From the NCBI RefSeq assembly GCF_009769385.1, contig NZ_VKAB01000027.1, forward strand, positions 62,001-126,000: DNA of 64,000 nucleotides, given 5' to 3'. Below, piece by piece: positions 19,468 through 24,988 of the stretch. The stretch is from Saccharothrix deserti. GTDB lineage: Bacteria > Actinomycetota > Actinomycetes > Mycobacteriales > Pseudonocardiaceae. Position numbers and translations under genes: made by a program. Within the stretch, counting starts at the first letter, position 1. Each line of letters begins with the position of its first letter. The notes under the pieces are model-generated. The model was not told where the DNA came from. It searched no databases and was given only the letters and a program-made list of their open reading frames with translations.

Positions 19468-19597
19468 GGTGGTGCCTCCTGGCCTGCTTCTGGGTCACGC
19501 CCTTGGGCGGATTGTCCCAAGGACGCCTCGGTAGGTGGATCGGTTCCCTCTGGACGAACGCTAAGCGCAGATGCCAGTATGCGACGGCGGTCACATA

Positions 19598-19613
19598 CTA
19601 AGCGGTCGCTCAG
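19598..19613. promoter_or_regulatory. TetR operator upstream of the fused carboxylase
   Basis: CTAAGC-GGTC-GCTCAG matches the regulon palindrome with one mismatch. It directly abuts the GGAGG ribosome binding site of the carboxylase gene. A further half site, GCTAAGCGC, lies at 19560. Confidence 0.7.
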
Positions 19614-19623
19614 GAGGTTGAAG

Positions 19624-22593
19624 GTGCCCACGCTGCTCGTCGCCAACCGAGGAGAGATCGCCGTCCGGGTGCTCCGCGCCGCCGCCGACCTCGGCTGGCG
19701 CACCGTCGCCCTGGTCACGGACTCCGACGACGCGCACGGCCGGTTCGCCGACCGCGCGGTCCGGCTCCGGGGCTCCTACCTGGACGTGGACGCCGTGCTC
19801 GCCGCCGCGGACGGGTGCGATCTGGTGCACCCCGGCTACGGGTTCCTGGCCGAGAACGCCGGGTTCGCCCGGCGCTGCGCCGATGCCGGGCTCACGTTCG
19901 TCGGACCGCCACCCGAGGTGCTCGAACTGCTCGGCGACAAGAGCCGGGCACGCGCCCTCGCGGCGGAGGTCGGCGTGCCGGTGCTCGCGGGCGCCGAGAA
20001 CGGGTTCGAGGAGTTCTTCCGCGCGCACGGCGCGGTGGTGGTGAAGGCCGTCGCCGGTGGCGGCGGCAAGGGCGTGCGGGTGGTGCGGCGGCTCGCCGAC
20101 CTCTCCGGCGCGGTCGAGCGGTGCCGGGCCGAGGCGCTGGCCGCGTTCGGCGACGACACCGTGTTCGTGGAGGAACTGCTCGAACCGGCCCGGCACGTCG
20201 AGGTGCAGCTGGTCGGCACGACGGTGCTGGGCGACCGCGACTGCTCGTTGCAGGTCAGGCACCAGAAGCTGGTCGAGGTCGCGCCCGCGCCGGACCTCTC
20301 CCCCGACCTGCGCGCCGCGCTGCACGAGGCGGCGGCGACGATCGCGCGCGCCGTCCGGTACACCGGGCTTGGCACGGTGGAGTTCCTGGTCGCGCCGGAC
20401 GGCCGGTTCGCGTTCCTGGAGGCCAATCCCCGGCTCCAGGTCGAGCACACCGTCACCGAGCAGGTCACCGGGCTGGACCTGGTGCGCGCCCAACTGCTGC
20501 TGGCGACCGAGGTCGAGCCGGACCTGACGCACACGCCGCGCGGCAGCGCGCTGCAACTGCGCGTCAGCCTGACCTCGACGGGACGGCTGTCGGCGTTCGT
20601 GCCGCCGTCCGGACCGGGTGTCCGGGTCGACACGCACGCCTCGGTCGGCTACCGGGCGGGTCTCGGTTTCGACCCGTTGCTGGCGAAGGTCGTGGTGCAC
20701 GCCGACGACCTGGACACCGCACTGCGCCGCGCCCGCCGCGCGCTGGACGAGTTCATTGTGGACGGTGCGAAGACGAACATCGGCTTCCTGCGCGGGCTCC
20801 TGGACCACCCGGATGTCCTGAAGGCACACACGGGACTGGTGGACTCACTGCCGCGCGAGGACACCGGAGCGCGCGCTCCCGTGCAGGGCACCGTCGTGGC
20901 GATCGAGTCCGGCGCGGTCGTCGTGGAAGCGATGAAGATGCAGCACGTCGTGCCGATCGGCGACGCGCGGGTGCTGGTCGAGGTCGGCGACACGGTGGCG
21001 GAAGGCGCGTTGCTGGCCGAAGGGGTGGACGTCGCGGTGGAGGAGAAGGCCGTCGCGGTCGACCTGGACGACGTGCGGCCGGATCTCGCGGAGACGTTGG
21101 CACGGCACGACTTCTCCCGTCCCGAGGCGGAGGCGAAGCGGCACGCGGCCGGGCGGCGCACGGTCCGGGAGAACATCAGCGACCTGTGCACCGACTTCGT
21201 GGAGTACGGCGGGCTGGCCATCGCCGCGCAACGCCGCCGGCGGTCGTTGGACGAACTGGTCGAGCGCACGCCCGCGGACGGGCTGGTCGCGGGCGTCGGC
21301 ACGGTGAACGGCGGCCAGGTCGTCGCGATGTCCTACGACTACACGGTGCTCGCGGGCACCCAGGGTCTGCGCAACCACGCCAAGAAGGACCGGATGTTCG
21401 CGTTGGCCGAGCAGCGGCGGCTGCCCGTGGTGCTGTTCGCCGAGGGCGGCGGCGGTCGGCCGGGCGACACCGACCACGGCGGCGTCAGCGGGCTGGACTG
21501 CATGGCGTTCCACCTGTTTGCCAAGCTCTCCGGGCGGGTGCCGCTGGTGGGCATCGCGTCCGGCCGGTGCTTCGCCGGGAACGCCGTGCTGCTGGGCACG
21601 TGCGACGTCGTCATCGCGACCCGTGACGCGACCATCGGCATGGGCGGCCCGGCGATGGTCGAGGGCGGCGGGCTCGGCGTGTTCCGGCCCGAGGAGATCG
21701 GGCCGGTGGACGTACAGGTGCCCAACGGCGTGATCGACGTGCTCGTGTCCGACGAGGCCGAGGCCGTCGCGGTGGCCAAGAAGTACCTCTCGTACTTCCA
21801 GGGGCCTGCCAACAGGTGGTCGACCGACGGGTGGTCGACCGACGGCTGGGAGTGCGCCGACCAGCGGCTGCTGCGGCACCTCGTGCCGGAGAACCGGGTG
21901 CGCGCCTACGACGTGCGGACCGTGGTGGAGACGCTCGCCGACACCGGGTCGGTGCTGGAGCTGCGGCGGGAGTTCGGGCGCGGCATCGTCACCGCCCTGG
22001 TCCGGGTCGAGGGCCGGCCGCTGGGGCTGATCGCGAACGACCCCGGCCACCTCGGCGGGGCGATCGACGCCGACTCGGCGGACAAGGCGGCGCGGTTCCT
22101 CCGGCTGTGCGACGCGTTCGCCCTGCCGGTGCTGTCGCTGTGCGACACGCCGGGATTCATGGTCGGACCGGACGCCGAGCGCACCGCGACCGTGCGGCGC
22201 CTGACCGGGATGCTCGTGACCGCCGCGAACCTCGACGTGCCGTTCGGGTTCGTCGCGCTGCGCAAGGCGTACGGGTTGGGCGCGCAGGCGATGGCGGCGG
22301 GCAGCCTGAAGGTGCCGCTGTTCGCCGTGTCGTGGCCGAGCGGCGAGTTCGGCCCGATGGGCCTCGAAGGTGCGGTGCGGCTCGGGTACCGGCGCGAACT
22401 GGACGCCATCGACGACCCGGCGCAGCGCGAGGAGGCGTTCACGGCGATGGTGTCGGCCGCCTACGAACACGGCAAGGCCCTCAACGTGGCGTCCGCGTTC
22501 GAGATCGACGACGTGATCGACCCGGCGGACACCCGGCGCTGGATCACCACCCTCCTCACGACCAGGCCAGGGGAAAGCCGTCACGGTGAGTGA
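19624..22593 (+). CDS. Single-chain acyl-CoA carboxylase: biotin carboxylase + biotin carrier + carboxyltransferase
   Basis: A 989-residue fusion. Residues 1 to about 405 are biotin carboxylase (PTLLVANRGEIAVRVLRAA, then the ATP-grasp loop KAVAGGGGKGVRVV and the LEANPRLQVEHTVTE active-site motif). K438 in VEAMKMQHV is the biotin site. The carboxyltransferase follows from about 500 on (FAEGGGGRPGDTD, LCDTPGFMVGP, AYGLGAQAMA). The carrier domain is short: the usual segment between its first strand and the EAMKM turn is mostly missing. It would make a malonyl- or methylmalonyl-type CoA; the substrate is not certain. Start GTG 19624 behind GGAGG. A CTAAGC-type operator lies just upstream. The tract NRWSTDGWSTDGW (about 735) is a recent in-frame duplication. 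Confidence 0.88.
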   Translation: MPTLLVANRGEIAVRVLRAAADLGWRTVALVTDSDDAHGRFADRAVRLRGSYLDVDAVLAAADGCDLVHPGYGFLAENAGFARRCADAGLTFVGPPPEVLELLGDKSRARALAAEVGVPVLAGAENGFEEFFRAHGAVVVKAVAGGGGKGVRVVRRLADLSGAVERCRAEALAAFGDDTVFVEELLEPARHVEVQLVGTTVLGDRDCSLQVRHQKLVEVAPAPDLSPDLRAALHEAAATIARAVRYTGLGTVEFLVAPDGRFAFLEANPRLQVEHTVTEQVTGLDLVRAQLLLATEVEPDLTHTPRGSALQLRVSLTSTGRLSAFVPPSGPGVRVDTHASVGYRAGLGFDPLLAKVVVHADDLDTALRRARRALDEFIVDGAKTNIGFLRGLLDHPDVLKAHTGLVDSLPREDTGARAPVQGTVVAIESGAVVVEAMKMQHVVPIGDARVLVEVGDTVAEGALLAEGVDVAVEEKAVAVDLDDVRPDLAETLARHDFSRPEAEAKRHAAGRRTVRENISDLCTDFVEYGGLAIAAQRRRRSLDELVERTPADGLVAGVGTVNGGQVVAMSYDYTVLAGTQGLRNHAKKDRMFALAEQRRLPVVLFAEGGGGRPGDTDHGGVSGLDCMAFHLFAKLSGRVPLVGIASGRCFAGNAVLLGTCDVVIATRDATIGMGGPAMVEGGGLGVFRPEEIGPVDVQVPNGVIDVLVSDEAEAVAVAKKYLSYFQGPANRWSTDGWSTDGWECADQRLLRHLVPENRVRAYDVRTVVETLADTGSVLELRREFGRGIVTALVRVEGRPLGLIANDPGHLGGAIDADSADKAARFLRLCDAFALPVLSLCDTPGFMVGPDAERTATVRRLTGMLVTAANLDVPFGFVALRKAYGLGAQAMAAGSLKVPLFAVSWPSGEFGPMGLEGAVRLGYRRELDAIDDPAQREEAFTAMVSAAYEHGKALNVASAFEIDDVIDPADTRRWITTLLTTRPGESRHGE

Positions 22594-22628
22594 CGAGTCG
22601 CGGGGTAATCGTGAACTGTCAAACGGGT

Positions 22629-22662
22629 GACGTGCGGAACGTTGGGGACGTGCCGTACGTTG
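22629..22662 (+). repeat. Pair of 16-bp direct repeats upstream of secA2
   Basis: GACGTGCGGAACGTTG (22629-22644) and GACGTGCCGTACGTTG (22647-22662) agree at 13 of 16 positions with an 18-bp period. They end 7 bp before the secA2 start and may bind a regulator. Confidence 0.5.
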
Positions 22663-22669
22663 CCGGTCC

Positions 22670-24988
22670 GTGACGACTCTCCTGGGACGGTTCAAGCAGC
22701 GGCTGCGCCGGTTCGCGCAGAAGCCAGGCTCCGCCGACCTCACGCCCTACCGGAAGCTGCTCGACGAGGTCAACGAGCAGGCGGAGCGCGTGAAAGAGCT
22801 GAGCGACGAGGAGCTGACCGCCGCGGCCGCCAAGCTGCGCGAGAAGCCCGAGTTCGGCCGTCCCGAACTGGTGGAGGTCTGCGCGCTGGGCCGCGAGGCC
22901 GCCGACCGCGCGCTGGGCCTGCGCCCGTTCGACGTGCAGATCCTCGGTGCCCTGGGCCTCCTGGAGGGCCACGTGGTCGAGATGGCCACCGGTGAGGGCA
23001 AGACGCTCTCCGGCGCCATCGCCGCGGCCGGTTTCGCGCTGCGCGGCGACCAGGTGCACGTCGTCTCGGTCAACGACTACCTCGCCCAGCGCGACGCCCA
23101 GTGGATGGGCCCGCTCTACGAGCTGCTGGGCGTGAGCGTCGGCTGGATCGACCAGAGCTCCAAGCCCGAGGAGCGCCGCACCGCGTACCAGGCCGAGGTC
23201 ACCTACGCCTCGGTCTCCGAGATCGGCTTCGACGTGCTGCGCGACCGGCTGGCCACCGACGAGGCCGACATCATCGTGCCCAAGCCGCGCGTCGCGCTGG
23301 TGGACGAGGCCGACTCGGTCCTGGTCGACGAGGCGCGCGTGCCGCTGGTCCTGGCGGGCTCCACGGCGGGCCCGGCGGTCGACCCGGCGCTGGCCGACCT
23401 GGTCAAGCGGCTGCGCCGCGACCTGCACTTCGAGATCGACGACGAAGAGCGCAACGTCTACCTCACCGGCGCGGGCAGCGAGCTGGTCGAACGGTCGCTC
23501 GGCGGTATCGACCTGTACTCCGACGAGCACGTCTCGACCACGCTGAGCAAGGTCAACGTGGCCCTGCACGCGCAGGTCCTGCTGCACCGGGACGTGGACT
23601 ACATCGTCCGCGACGGCAAGGTGCACCTGATCAACGACACCCGCGGCCGGATCGCGAAGCTCCAGCGCTGGCCGGACGGCCTCCAGGCGGCGGTCGAGGC
23701 CAAGGAGAACGTGGCCACCACGGACGCGGGCGAGGTGCTGGACTCGATCACCGTCCAGGCGCTGCTCAGCCGCTACCCGTCGGTGTGCGGCATGACGGGC
23801 ACGGCGGTGGCCGTCGCCGAGCAGCTGCGCGACTTCTACCAGCTGGAAGTGCTGGTCATCCCGCCGAACGTGGAGACGATCCGGGAGGACGAGGCGCCCC
23901 GGCTGTACGCGACGCTGGAGCAGAAGGAAGCCGCGATCGTCGCCGAGATCAAGGAAGTGCACGAGACCGGCCGCCCGATCCTCGTCGGCACCCTCGACGT
24001 GGCCGAGTCCGAGCGCCTGTCCCGCAAGCTCGCCGAGGCCGGCTTGAGCTGCGTGGTGCTCAACGCGAAGAACGACGCCGAGGAAGCCTCGATCATCGCC
24101 GACGCGGGCTCGTTCGAGCGGATCACCGTGTCCACCCAGATGGCGGGCCGCGGCACGGACATCCGGCTCGGCGGGCACGACTCGACCGACCGGGAGCGCA
24201 TCGCCGAGCTCGGCGGCCTCTACGTGATCGGCACCGGCCGGCACTCCAGCAGCCGGCTGGACGACCAGCTGCGCGGTCGCGCGGGACGCCAGGGCGACCC
24301 GGGCGGCTCGGTGTTCTTCTCCTCGTTGCAGGACGAGCTGGTCACCCAGTACGTGCCGGACCACGACGAGCCGGCCGAGGTGGACGAGGACGGCCGGATC
24401 ACCGACGCGGGCACCCTGCACACCGTGGAGCACGCGCAGCGCATCGCCGAGGGCGTGCACCTGGAGATCCACCGCAACACCTGGCGCTACAACAAGCTGA
24501 TCGAGCACCAGCGCCAGCTGATGCTGGAGTACCGGGACAAGCTGGTGCGCACCGACCTGGCCTGGCAGGAGCTGTCCGAGCGCAAGCCGGACCGGGTGCA
24601 CGAGCTGGCGGACCTGGACGAGGAGATCAAGGTCTCCGCGGCCCGCCTGATCGCGCTGCACCACCTGGACCAGCGGTGGAGCGATCACCTGACGTTCCTG
24701 ACCGACCTGCGGGAGGGCATCCACCTGCGGGCGCTGGCACGGCAGAACCCGCTGGACGAGTTCCACCGCGAGGCCATCCCGGCCTACCACAAGATCATCC
24801 CGGACGCGTGGGACGAGGCCGAGGAGACCTTCGCCAAGGTGAAGATCGACGCCGACGGCGCGCACCTGGCCGAGGCGGGCGTGCAGCGCCCGAACACCAC
24901 CTGGACGTACCTGGTCAACGACAACCCGTTCTCCTCCGGCCTGGAGGAGACGTTCAAGGGGTTGGTGAAGCTCGTCCGCCGTCGCTAG
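22670..24988 (+). CDS. secA2: Accessory preprotein translocase ATPase SecA2
   Basis: A 772-residue SecA-type ATPase. Walker A is MATGEGKT (105-112, K111); the DEAD box is VDEADSVLVDEAR (about 212-224); the second helicase motif is visible in STQMAGRGTDIRLGG and GRAGRQGDPG. It is shorter than SecA1 (usually above 900 residues) and lacks the C-terminal Cys/His zinc tail, which marks the SecA2 branch of actinobacteria. SecA2 drives export of a subset of proteins through SecYEG from the cytoplasmic side. GTG 22670 is the start; no good SD is seen. A pair of 16-bp direct repeats lies directly upstream. The stop sits in a short tandem duplication. Confidence 0.93.
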   Translation: MTTLLGRFKQRLRRFAQKPGSADLTPYRKLLDEVNEQAERVKELSDEELTAAAAKLREKPEFGRPELVEVCALGREAADRALGLRPFDVQILGALGLLEGHVVEMATGEGKTLSGAIAAAGFALRGDQVHVVSVNDYLAQRDAQWMGPLYELLGVSVGWIDQSSKPEERRTAYQAEVTYASVSEIGFDVLRDRLATDEADIIVPKPRVALVDEADSVLVDEARVPLVLAGSTAGPAVDPALADLVKRLRRDLHFEIDDEERNVYLTGAGSELVERSLGGIDLYSDEHVSTTLSKVNVALHAQVLLHRDVDYIVRDGKVHLINDTRGRIAKLQRWPDGLQAAVEAKENVATTDAGEVLDSITVQALLSRYPSVCGMTGTAVAVAEQLRDFYQLEVLVIPPNVETIREDEAPRLYATLEQKEAAIVAEIKEVHETGRPILVGTLDVAESERLSRKLAEAGLSCVVLNAKNDAEEASIIADAGSFERITVSTQMAGRGTDIRLGGHDSTDRERIAELGGLYVIGTGRHSSSRLDDQLRGRAGRQGDPGGSVFFSSLQDELVTQYVPDHDEPAEVDEDGRITDAGTLHTVEHAQRIAEGVHLEIHRNTWRYNKLIEHQRQLMLEYRDKLVRTDLAWQELSERKPDRVHELADLDEEIKVSAARLIALHHLDQRWSDHLTFLTDLREGIHLRALARQNPLDEFHREAIPAYHKIIPDAWDEAEETFAKVKIDADGAHLAEAGVQRPNTTWTYLVNDNPFSSGLEETFKGLVKLVRRR

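Follow-up and report, generated by a model that had tools for sequence, protein, structure and literature searches.

Promoters of the sigma-H and sigma-E classes in Corynebacterium glutamicum are described, in the available text of that study, by the consensus GGAAC-N17-18-cGTT, the sigma-E form of which equals the mycobacterial sigma-E consensus; GGAAC is read there by both factors, and the targets of its Table 2 include dnaK and cseE (PMC10012870). For Mycobacterium tuberculosis, the SigH consensus is given as GGAAYR-N17(-18)-GTT, and SigE is reported to prefer a pyrimidine at the sixth position of the -35 element (PMC4803200). The sigma-E factor of Streptomyces coelicolor is likewise of the ECF type and acts in cell-envelope stress, with AAC in the -35 element of its promoters, a spacer of 16-17 bp and a -10 element that was sought as TC (PMC6767563). 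In mycobacteria, about a quarter of transcripts are described as leaderless, starting at the start codon, and either ATG or GTG suffices for such a start; the associated motif is of the ANNNT housekeeping type (PMC6448022).

We analyzed the region preceding secA2 in Saccharothrix deserti, which lies within a 64-kb stretch of DNA (the window) and in which an earlier note had drawn attention to a pair of direct repeats. The site embedded in these repeats, GGAACG-N17-GTT when read from the hexamer, fits both the C. glutamicum and the M. tuberculosis consensus. Its motif and spacing are the same as those of the C. glutamicum sigma-H/sigma-E promoters, from which it differs in its target, secA2 (the string 'seca' is absent from the main text of PMC10012870), and in having an added invariant block upstream. 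It likewise fits the M. tuberculosis SigH arrangement of GGAAYR-N17-GTT with spacers of 17-18 nt, and its sixth base, G, suits SigH better than the pyrimidine preference described for SigE (PMC4803200); among the 108 motif-bearing loci discussed below this base is G in 59, T in 23, C in 21 and A in 5. In contrast to the TC sought for S. coelicolor sigma-E, the secA2 site has GTT (PMC6767563), and whereas the motif of mycobacterial leaderless mRNAs is of the housekeeping type, an ECF promoter is proposed for secA2 (PMC6448022).

Neither secA nor Rv1821 occurs in the main text of the M. tuberculosis SigH paper (PMC4803200), 'secA2' has 0 occurrences in the available text of the S. coelicolor sigma-E regulon paper (PMC6767563), and in that of PMC6448022 it is confined to the reference list. 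The available texts of PMC6448022, PMC6244158, PMC11508509, PMC3022926, PMC10012870 and PMC4803200 contain no tie between secA2 and sigma-E or sigma-H. A search confined to the open-licence PMC literature, as far as its text was available, returned no report of secA2 together with either factor and no account of the trigger that switches on the accessory SecA2 pathway. The promoter type is known, and secA2 is apparently unreported as one of its targets.

Repeats and predicted promoter elements upstream of secA2

The features of the region are listed here with their coordinates in the window; negative positions in the text are counted from the GTG start codon.

22611-22641, + strand: genus-specific invariant block that includes the -35 element, a possible operator (28 of 31 columns invariant, 26 of 26 rows)
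22628-22630, + strand: in-frame stop codon TGA, present at -42 in 26 of 26 rows, so that secA2 cannot start farther upstream
22629-22644, + strand: repeat copy 1, GACGTGCGGAACGTTG, as given in the earlier note
22636-22640, + strand: predicted -35 element GGAAC of the ECF sigma-E/sigma-H type, within copy 1 (invariant in 26 of 26 rows; published consensus)
22642-22650, + strand: variable part of the spacer, which as a whole spans 22641-22657 (none of the nine columns, -28 to -20, is invariant in the 26 rows)
22647-22662, + strand: repeat copy 2, GACGTGCCGTACGTTG, as given in the earlier note
22658-22661, + strand: predicted -10 element CGTT, within CGTACGTT (22654-22661) and within copy 2 (columns -16 to -7 invariant)
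22670-22672, + strand: GTG start codon and predicted transcript start (published -31 numbering, gap of 8-9 nt, no Shine-Dalgarno sequence)
22670-24988, + strand: secA2, accessory Sec translocase ATPase of 772 aa (TIGR04221; Pfam SecA domains)

The product of secA2 scores 1121.9 bits against the NCBIfam model TIGR04221 (SecA2_Mycobac; cut-off 725), and it is a SecA2 of the actinobacterial type whose nearest named relatives are from Saccharothrix. GTG 22670 is the first possible ATG, GTG or TTG start in its frame. In an alignment of 26 rows, comprising 25 same-genus genomes and the locus L063, the start is GTG in every row, and between the TGA and this GTG no other in-frame start occurs in 25 of the 26, the exception being L021, which has a GTG at -24. 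The gene upstream (19588-22593) encodes a fused biotin carboxylase and carboxyltransferase-like protein, which falls below the cut-off of every NCBIfam model among the 25 matches listed.

As the earlier note had it, the repeats have a period of 18 bp and the second copy ends 7 nt before GTG 22670; both positions are borne out by the sequence. The two 16-mers are also present as described, except that they agree at 14 of 16 positions rather than at the 13 that had been claimed (GACGTGCGGAACGTTG vs GACGTGCCGTACGTTG). When the 76-nt intergenic region was shuffled 2000 times with its dinucleotides preserved, a pair agreeing at 14 or more of 16 positions arose once. Of 1683 tiles of this length taken across the 64-kb window, 22 (1.3%) also contained such a pair, so that the repeat alone is only mildly unusual, and a repeat search of the window at default settings did not list the pair at 22629-22662.

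Comparison with relatives, for which the earlier note had called, gives a divided picture, and the lack of conservation in close relatives that would speak against the repeats is seen in part. Of the 25 genus genomes, 21 have an identical copy 1 and 21 keep the repeat core TGCnGnACGTTG (10 of 12 positions). In L023-L025, three genomes of the same genus, however, the copies agree with each other at only 7 of 16 positions, and in Lentzea at 7-10 of 16; in both groups GGAAC and CGTACGTT are unchanged in their mutual distance and in their distance to the GTG. The direct repeat as a functional unit was therefore rejected, since it decays where GGAAC and CGTACGTT persist, and it is the arrangement GGAAC-N17-CGTT-N8-GTG that looks like the selected unit. 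The expectation of a functional element at the gene start is thus supported, and the identification of that element with the repeat is not.

The pattern of variation among the 26 rows follows promoter logic: two fixed boxes are separated by a free spacer. Columns -59 to -29 are invariant except for -54, -53 and -47, and columns -19 to -7 except for -17, while positions -6 to -3 vary; neither the -35 region (-34 to -29) nor the -10 region (-16 to -7) has a variable column. GTGAA stands at -59 in 26 of 26 rows, from which it follows that no insertion or deletion is seen between it and the start codon. GGAAC and CGTT are separated by 17 nt at the window site, and the variable part of this spacer contains the drifting ends of the repeats, TTG at the end of copy 1 and GACG at the start of copy 2.

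We consider it highly probable that the repeats represent the -35 and -10 elements of an ECF stress-sigma promoter that would give rise to a leaderless secA2 mRNA. The earlier note had proposed instead that they bind a regulator or form part of the translation start, and a tandem site of a dedicated regulator, or a translation-start element, would account for the identity of copy 1 and the retention of the TGCnGnACGTTG core in most of the genus. The sigma-factor promoter predicts the same core, and the promoter elements persist in the three genus genomes that have lost the repeat and in Lentzea, where it has decayed; moreover, what the repeats contain beyond GGAAC and CGTACGTT falls in part within the variable spacer. 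We therefore regard the repeats as very unlikely to constitute a regulator site or translation-start element. A regulator site may lie instead in the invariant block upstream (22611-22641).

The promoter element belongs to secA2 rather than to the gene before it, because the upstream neighbor differs in most of the genus (21 of 25 genomes). A carboxylase match within 1500 nt upstream of secA2 is present in 4 of 25 genus genomes (L001, L002, L018 and L020), and in L002 this match comprises 32 residues only, approximately 1400 nt from secA2. As the block is nevertheless found in 25 of 25 genomes, we rejected the idea that its conservation spills over from the carboxylase gene, whose 3′ end lies before it.

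Predicted leaderless start and choice of sigma factor

In the mechanism we propose, RNA polymerase carrying an ECF factor of the sigma-E/sigma-H type would read GGAAC at 22636-22640 together with CGTT at 22658-22661, and transcription would begin on the GTG itself (22670-22671), yielding a secA2 mRNA without a 5′ leader. Such an mRNA would need no Shine-Dalgarno sequence, as the ribosome would start on its 5′-terminal GTG. The placement of the transcript start derives from the published numbering, according to which the C of GGAAC is -31 in the available text of PMC10012870; applied to the window, this numbering predicts +1 at 22671, plus or minus 1, on the secA2 GTG. The observed gap between CGTT and GTG is 8 nt, and none of the Shine-Dalgarno-like 4-mers GGAG, GAGG, AGGA or GGGG occurs at -18 to -4 in any of the 26 rows. 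The earlier note had rightly remarked that the repeats fill the position of a ribosome binding site that is otherwise missing, and the absence of this site would be explained by a leaderless mRNA arising from a promoter at the start codon.

An ECF arrangement of this kind has precedents. Two C. glutamicum promoters, whose -10 element is AGTT rather than CGTT, are listed at distances of 0 and 1 nt to the start codon (PMC10012870, available text), and 3 of 25 newly mapped SigH-dependent starts of M. tuberculosis fall within 5 bp of a start codon (PMC4803200, available text). Among the matches listed, CGTT lies 8-9 nt before a possible in-frame ATG or GTG start in 14 genera; the motif occurs at least once in 18 further genera, where the likely start is mostly 25 nt or farther away, a few nearer in-frame codons excepted. 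The most likely reading of these distances is that secA2 mRNA is leaderless and starts on the GTG. The locus would then be an example of an ECF promoter and a leaderless start that have apparently been kept together across orders, with a fixed gap of 8-9 nt, and the long-leader versions of secA2 in other genera provide a comparison for the leaderless form.

The sequence TACGTT at the -10 position also fits the TANNNT element of the housekeeping sigma factor, which raises the question of whether the promoter is leaderless but of the housekeeping type, with GGAAC having no role. Two further genera of the same order, g47 and g49, lend this explanation some weight. The GGAAC motif is absent from both (0 of 8 and 0 of 9 loci), and all 17 of their loci (L206-L210, L230-L241) carry the TANNNT-like sequence GTACCGT, followed after a gap of 6 nt by an in-frame GTG (8 loci) or after one of 8 nt by an in-frame ATG (9 loci). 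The arrangement in these two genera resembles that of a leaderless gene whose -10 element is of the housekeeping type, the position being unchanged and the sigma class possibly swapped. For secA2 of the window, a housekeeping promoter is nonetheless very unlikely: in 30 of the 43 genera examined, most loci keep GGAAC and CGTT at a spacing of exactly 17 or 18 nt, among them loci, for example those of Nonomuraea, that have CGTT without TANNNT. A simple scan for sigma-70-type promoters, which does not cover TANNNT-only promoters, also found none. A terminator scan gave no match.

Occurrence of the motif across genera and within the genome

The ECF promoter reading draws on the breadth of its motif. 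GGAAC-N17/18-CGTT lies no more than about 200 nt before secA2 in 108 of 150 loci, with N17 in 78 and N18 in 30. In 30 of 43 genera most loci have it; the number of genera expected is 0.09 when the sequences are shuffled and 0.02 when other segments of these loci serve as the control. The choice of motif followed inspection of the alignment, although the motif equals a consensus published independently from other organisms. Motif-bearing genera include Saccharothrix, Lentzea, Nonomuraea, Streptosporangium, Microbispora, Thermobifida and Kribbella. In the remaining 13 genera it does not occur in most loci: it is present in 2 of 4 loci of g24 and 1 of 2 of g44, and in none of the loci examined in 11 genera (Streptomonospora, g19, g20, g23, g34, g39, g41, g43, g46, g47 and g49). 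For the motif-free rows in g23, g34 and g43, homology begins inside the protein or the start is uncertain, such that a motif farther upstream could escape; conversely, the matches in g4 and g28 sit 164-200 nt upstream and may have no relation to the start.

The 150 loci exclude L026, which lies on a duplicate contig, and L174, an inner part of the gene. Of the 32 SecA2-bearing genera of one genome search, g3, g17, g33 and g40 lie outside the set, as do 17 SecA2 places of that search in all. Of 80 further loci, 44 were counted, and 36 of the same family were omitted against double counting; L230-L241 were added as new rows, and L226, L229 and places without a locus were left out.

Within the genome of the window (G000), GGAAC-N17-CGTTG occurs 38 times, and in a second genome (G013) it occurs 23 times. 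Seventeen of the 38 entries are collinear with a G013 site, or 16 distinct sites when the duplicate copy of secA2 is discounted. A control pattern with an N23 spacer gave 23 and 9 matches in the two genomes and 0 collinear pairs. The other 21 of the 38 entries have no collinear partner in G013, and a single motif site is consequently weak evidence by itself.

The downstream proteins were scanned for 11 of the 16 conserved sites, L244, L245, L257, L269 and L300 lying outside the scan, and 11 of the 16 have a downstream gene named by a model, secA2 included. According to family models above their cut-offs, conserved sites precede sigE (NF007229, 352 bits, cut-off 265), htpX, dnaK, ftsH, rpmE and yidD, as well as pspA, rbpA, a Bax-inhibitor-like gene and an MFS transporter gene. 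Some of these are less secure than others. The site before yidD (L270) is 71 nt from the gene and inside a longer open frame, and is not a clear promoter; the site before the MFS gene (L297) is doubtful, since it is paired with three G013 loci and lies 181 nt from the gene. No gene was identified downstream of L257. Genes for Hsp20 (L256), GreA (L264) and a rhodanese (L271) follow motif matches that lack a G013 partner and were not counted. The individual sites L267 (G000:C15:96608-96634), L243, L251, L252, L255, L258 and L266 precede sigE, pspA, htpX, rbpA, dnaK, ftsH and the Bax-inhibitor-like gene.

Genes of the envelope and of protein quality control are prominent among these targets, and the conserved sites make up a predicted sigma-E/sigma-H regulon. 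Published accounts, as far as their text is available, describe sigE and pspA as induced by detergent stress, in agreement with the predicted target set. From the shared motif we infer that envelope or protein-folding stress would free the sigma factor and that secA2 would then be induced along with sigE, pspA, htpX, ftsH, dnaK and rbpA. This suggests that SecA2, an accessory export motor, is produced on demand in stress. Should secA2 belong to the sigma-E/sigma-H regulon, its export route would be one component of the response to membrane damage and protein misfolding.

As to the particular factor, either sigma-E or sigma-H may read the secA2 site. The genome's own sigH gene has GGAAT-N17-CGTT upstream instead of GGAAC, a type of site that matches the sigma-H-only class of C. 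glutamicum (PMC10012870, available text). In addition, 28 stretches in this genome match SigH_actino, some of them parts of one gene, and other ECF factors encoded here may also be able to read the GGAAC motif.

The invariant block reaching upstream of the predicted -35 element

The invariant block starts at -59, the first G of GGAAC (-34) following 25 nt later, and may hold an operator. It contains an imperfect palindrome, GTCA-N6-TGAC (22618-22631), centered at -45.5 from the GTG, in which 5 (in the window) or 6 of 7 pairs match; taken alone the palindrome is weak, and its position is one that an activator could occupy.

A different account of the block treats it as a coding sequence, namely an upstream ORF of 20 codons that runs from GTG 22611 to the TGA at 22671-22673 and is translationally coupled to secA2 through GTGA. 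In each of the 26 rows a GTG stands at -59 and the frame stays open as far as GTGA, an overlap that arises because secA2 starts with GTG-A. The variable columns of this ORF number 7, 4 and 6 by codon position and so exhibit no third-position bias, as against 23, 18 and 48 for codons 2-61 of secA2, and its aligned start is absent in Lentzea. The upstream ORF was rejected on the grounds that its codon-position pattern is not coding-like, and we consider its existence extremely improbable.

The preferred ECF promoter reading can be placed in a wider setting, which we offer tentatively as a possibility that falls short of an even chance. SecA2 would be an ancestral member of the sigma-E/sigma-H regulon, with its leaderless ECF promoter kept across several orders and exchanged for a housekeeping-like one in some sister genera; Saccharothrix and Actinosynnema would have gained a dedicated operator, within 22611-22635 and with the half-sites GTCA and TGAC, for a putative gating regulator.

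A 21-base core of the block, searched in the genome with up to 2 mismatches, is found at secA2 and at its copy on the duplicate contig only, both times as a perfect match. At 3 mismatches the core adds two matches, equal to the control count of 2, and a regulon defined by the block was therefore rejected. The second copy of secA2 lies on contig C22, the window being on C21; a comparison of 5001 bases around secA2 showed the two contigs to be identical there, and one match to the N23 pattern occurs on both at an equal offset from the gene. C22 looks like a redundant assembly copy of part of C21.
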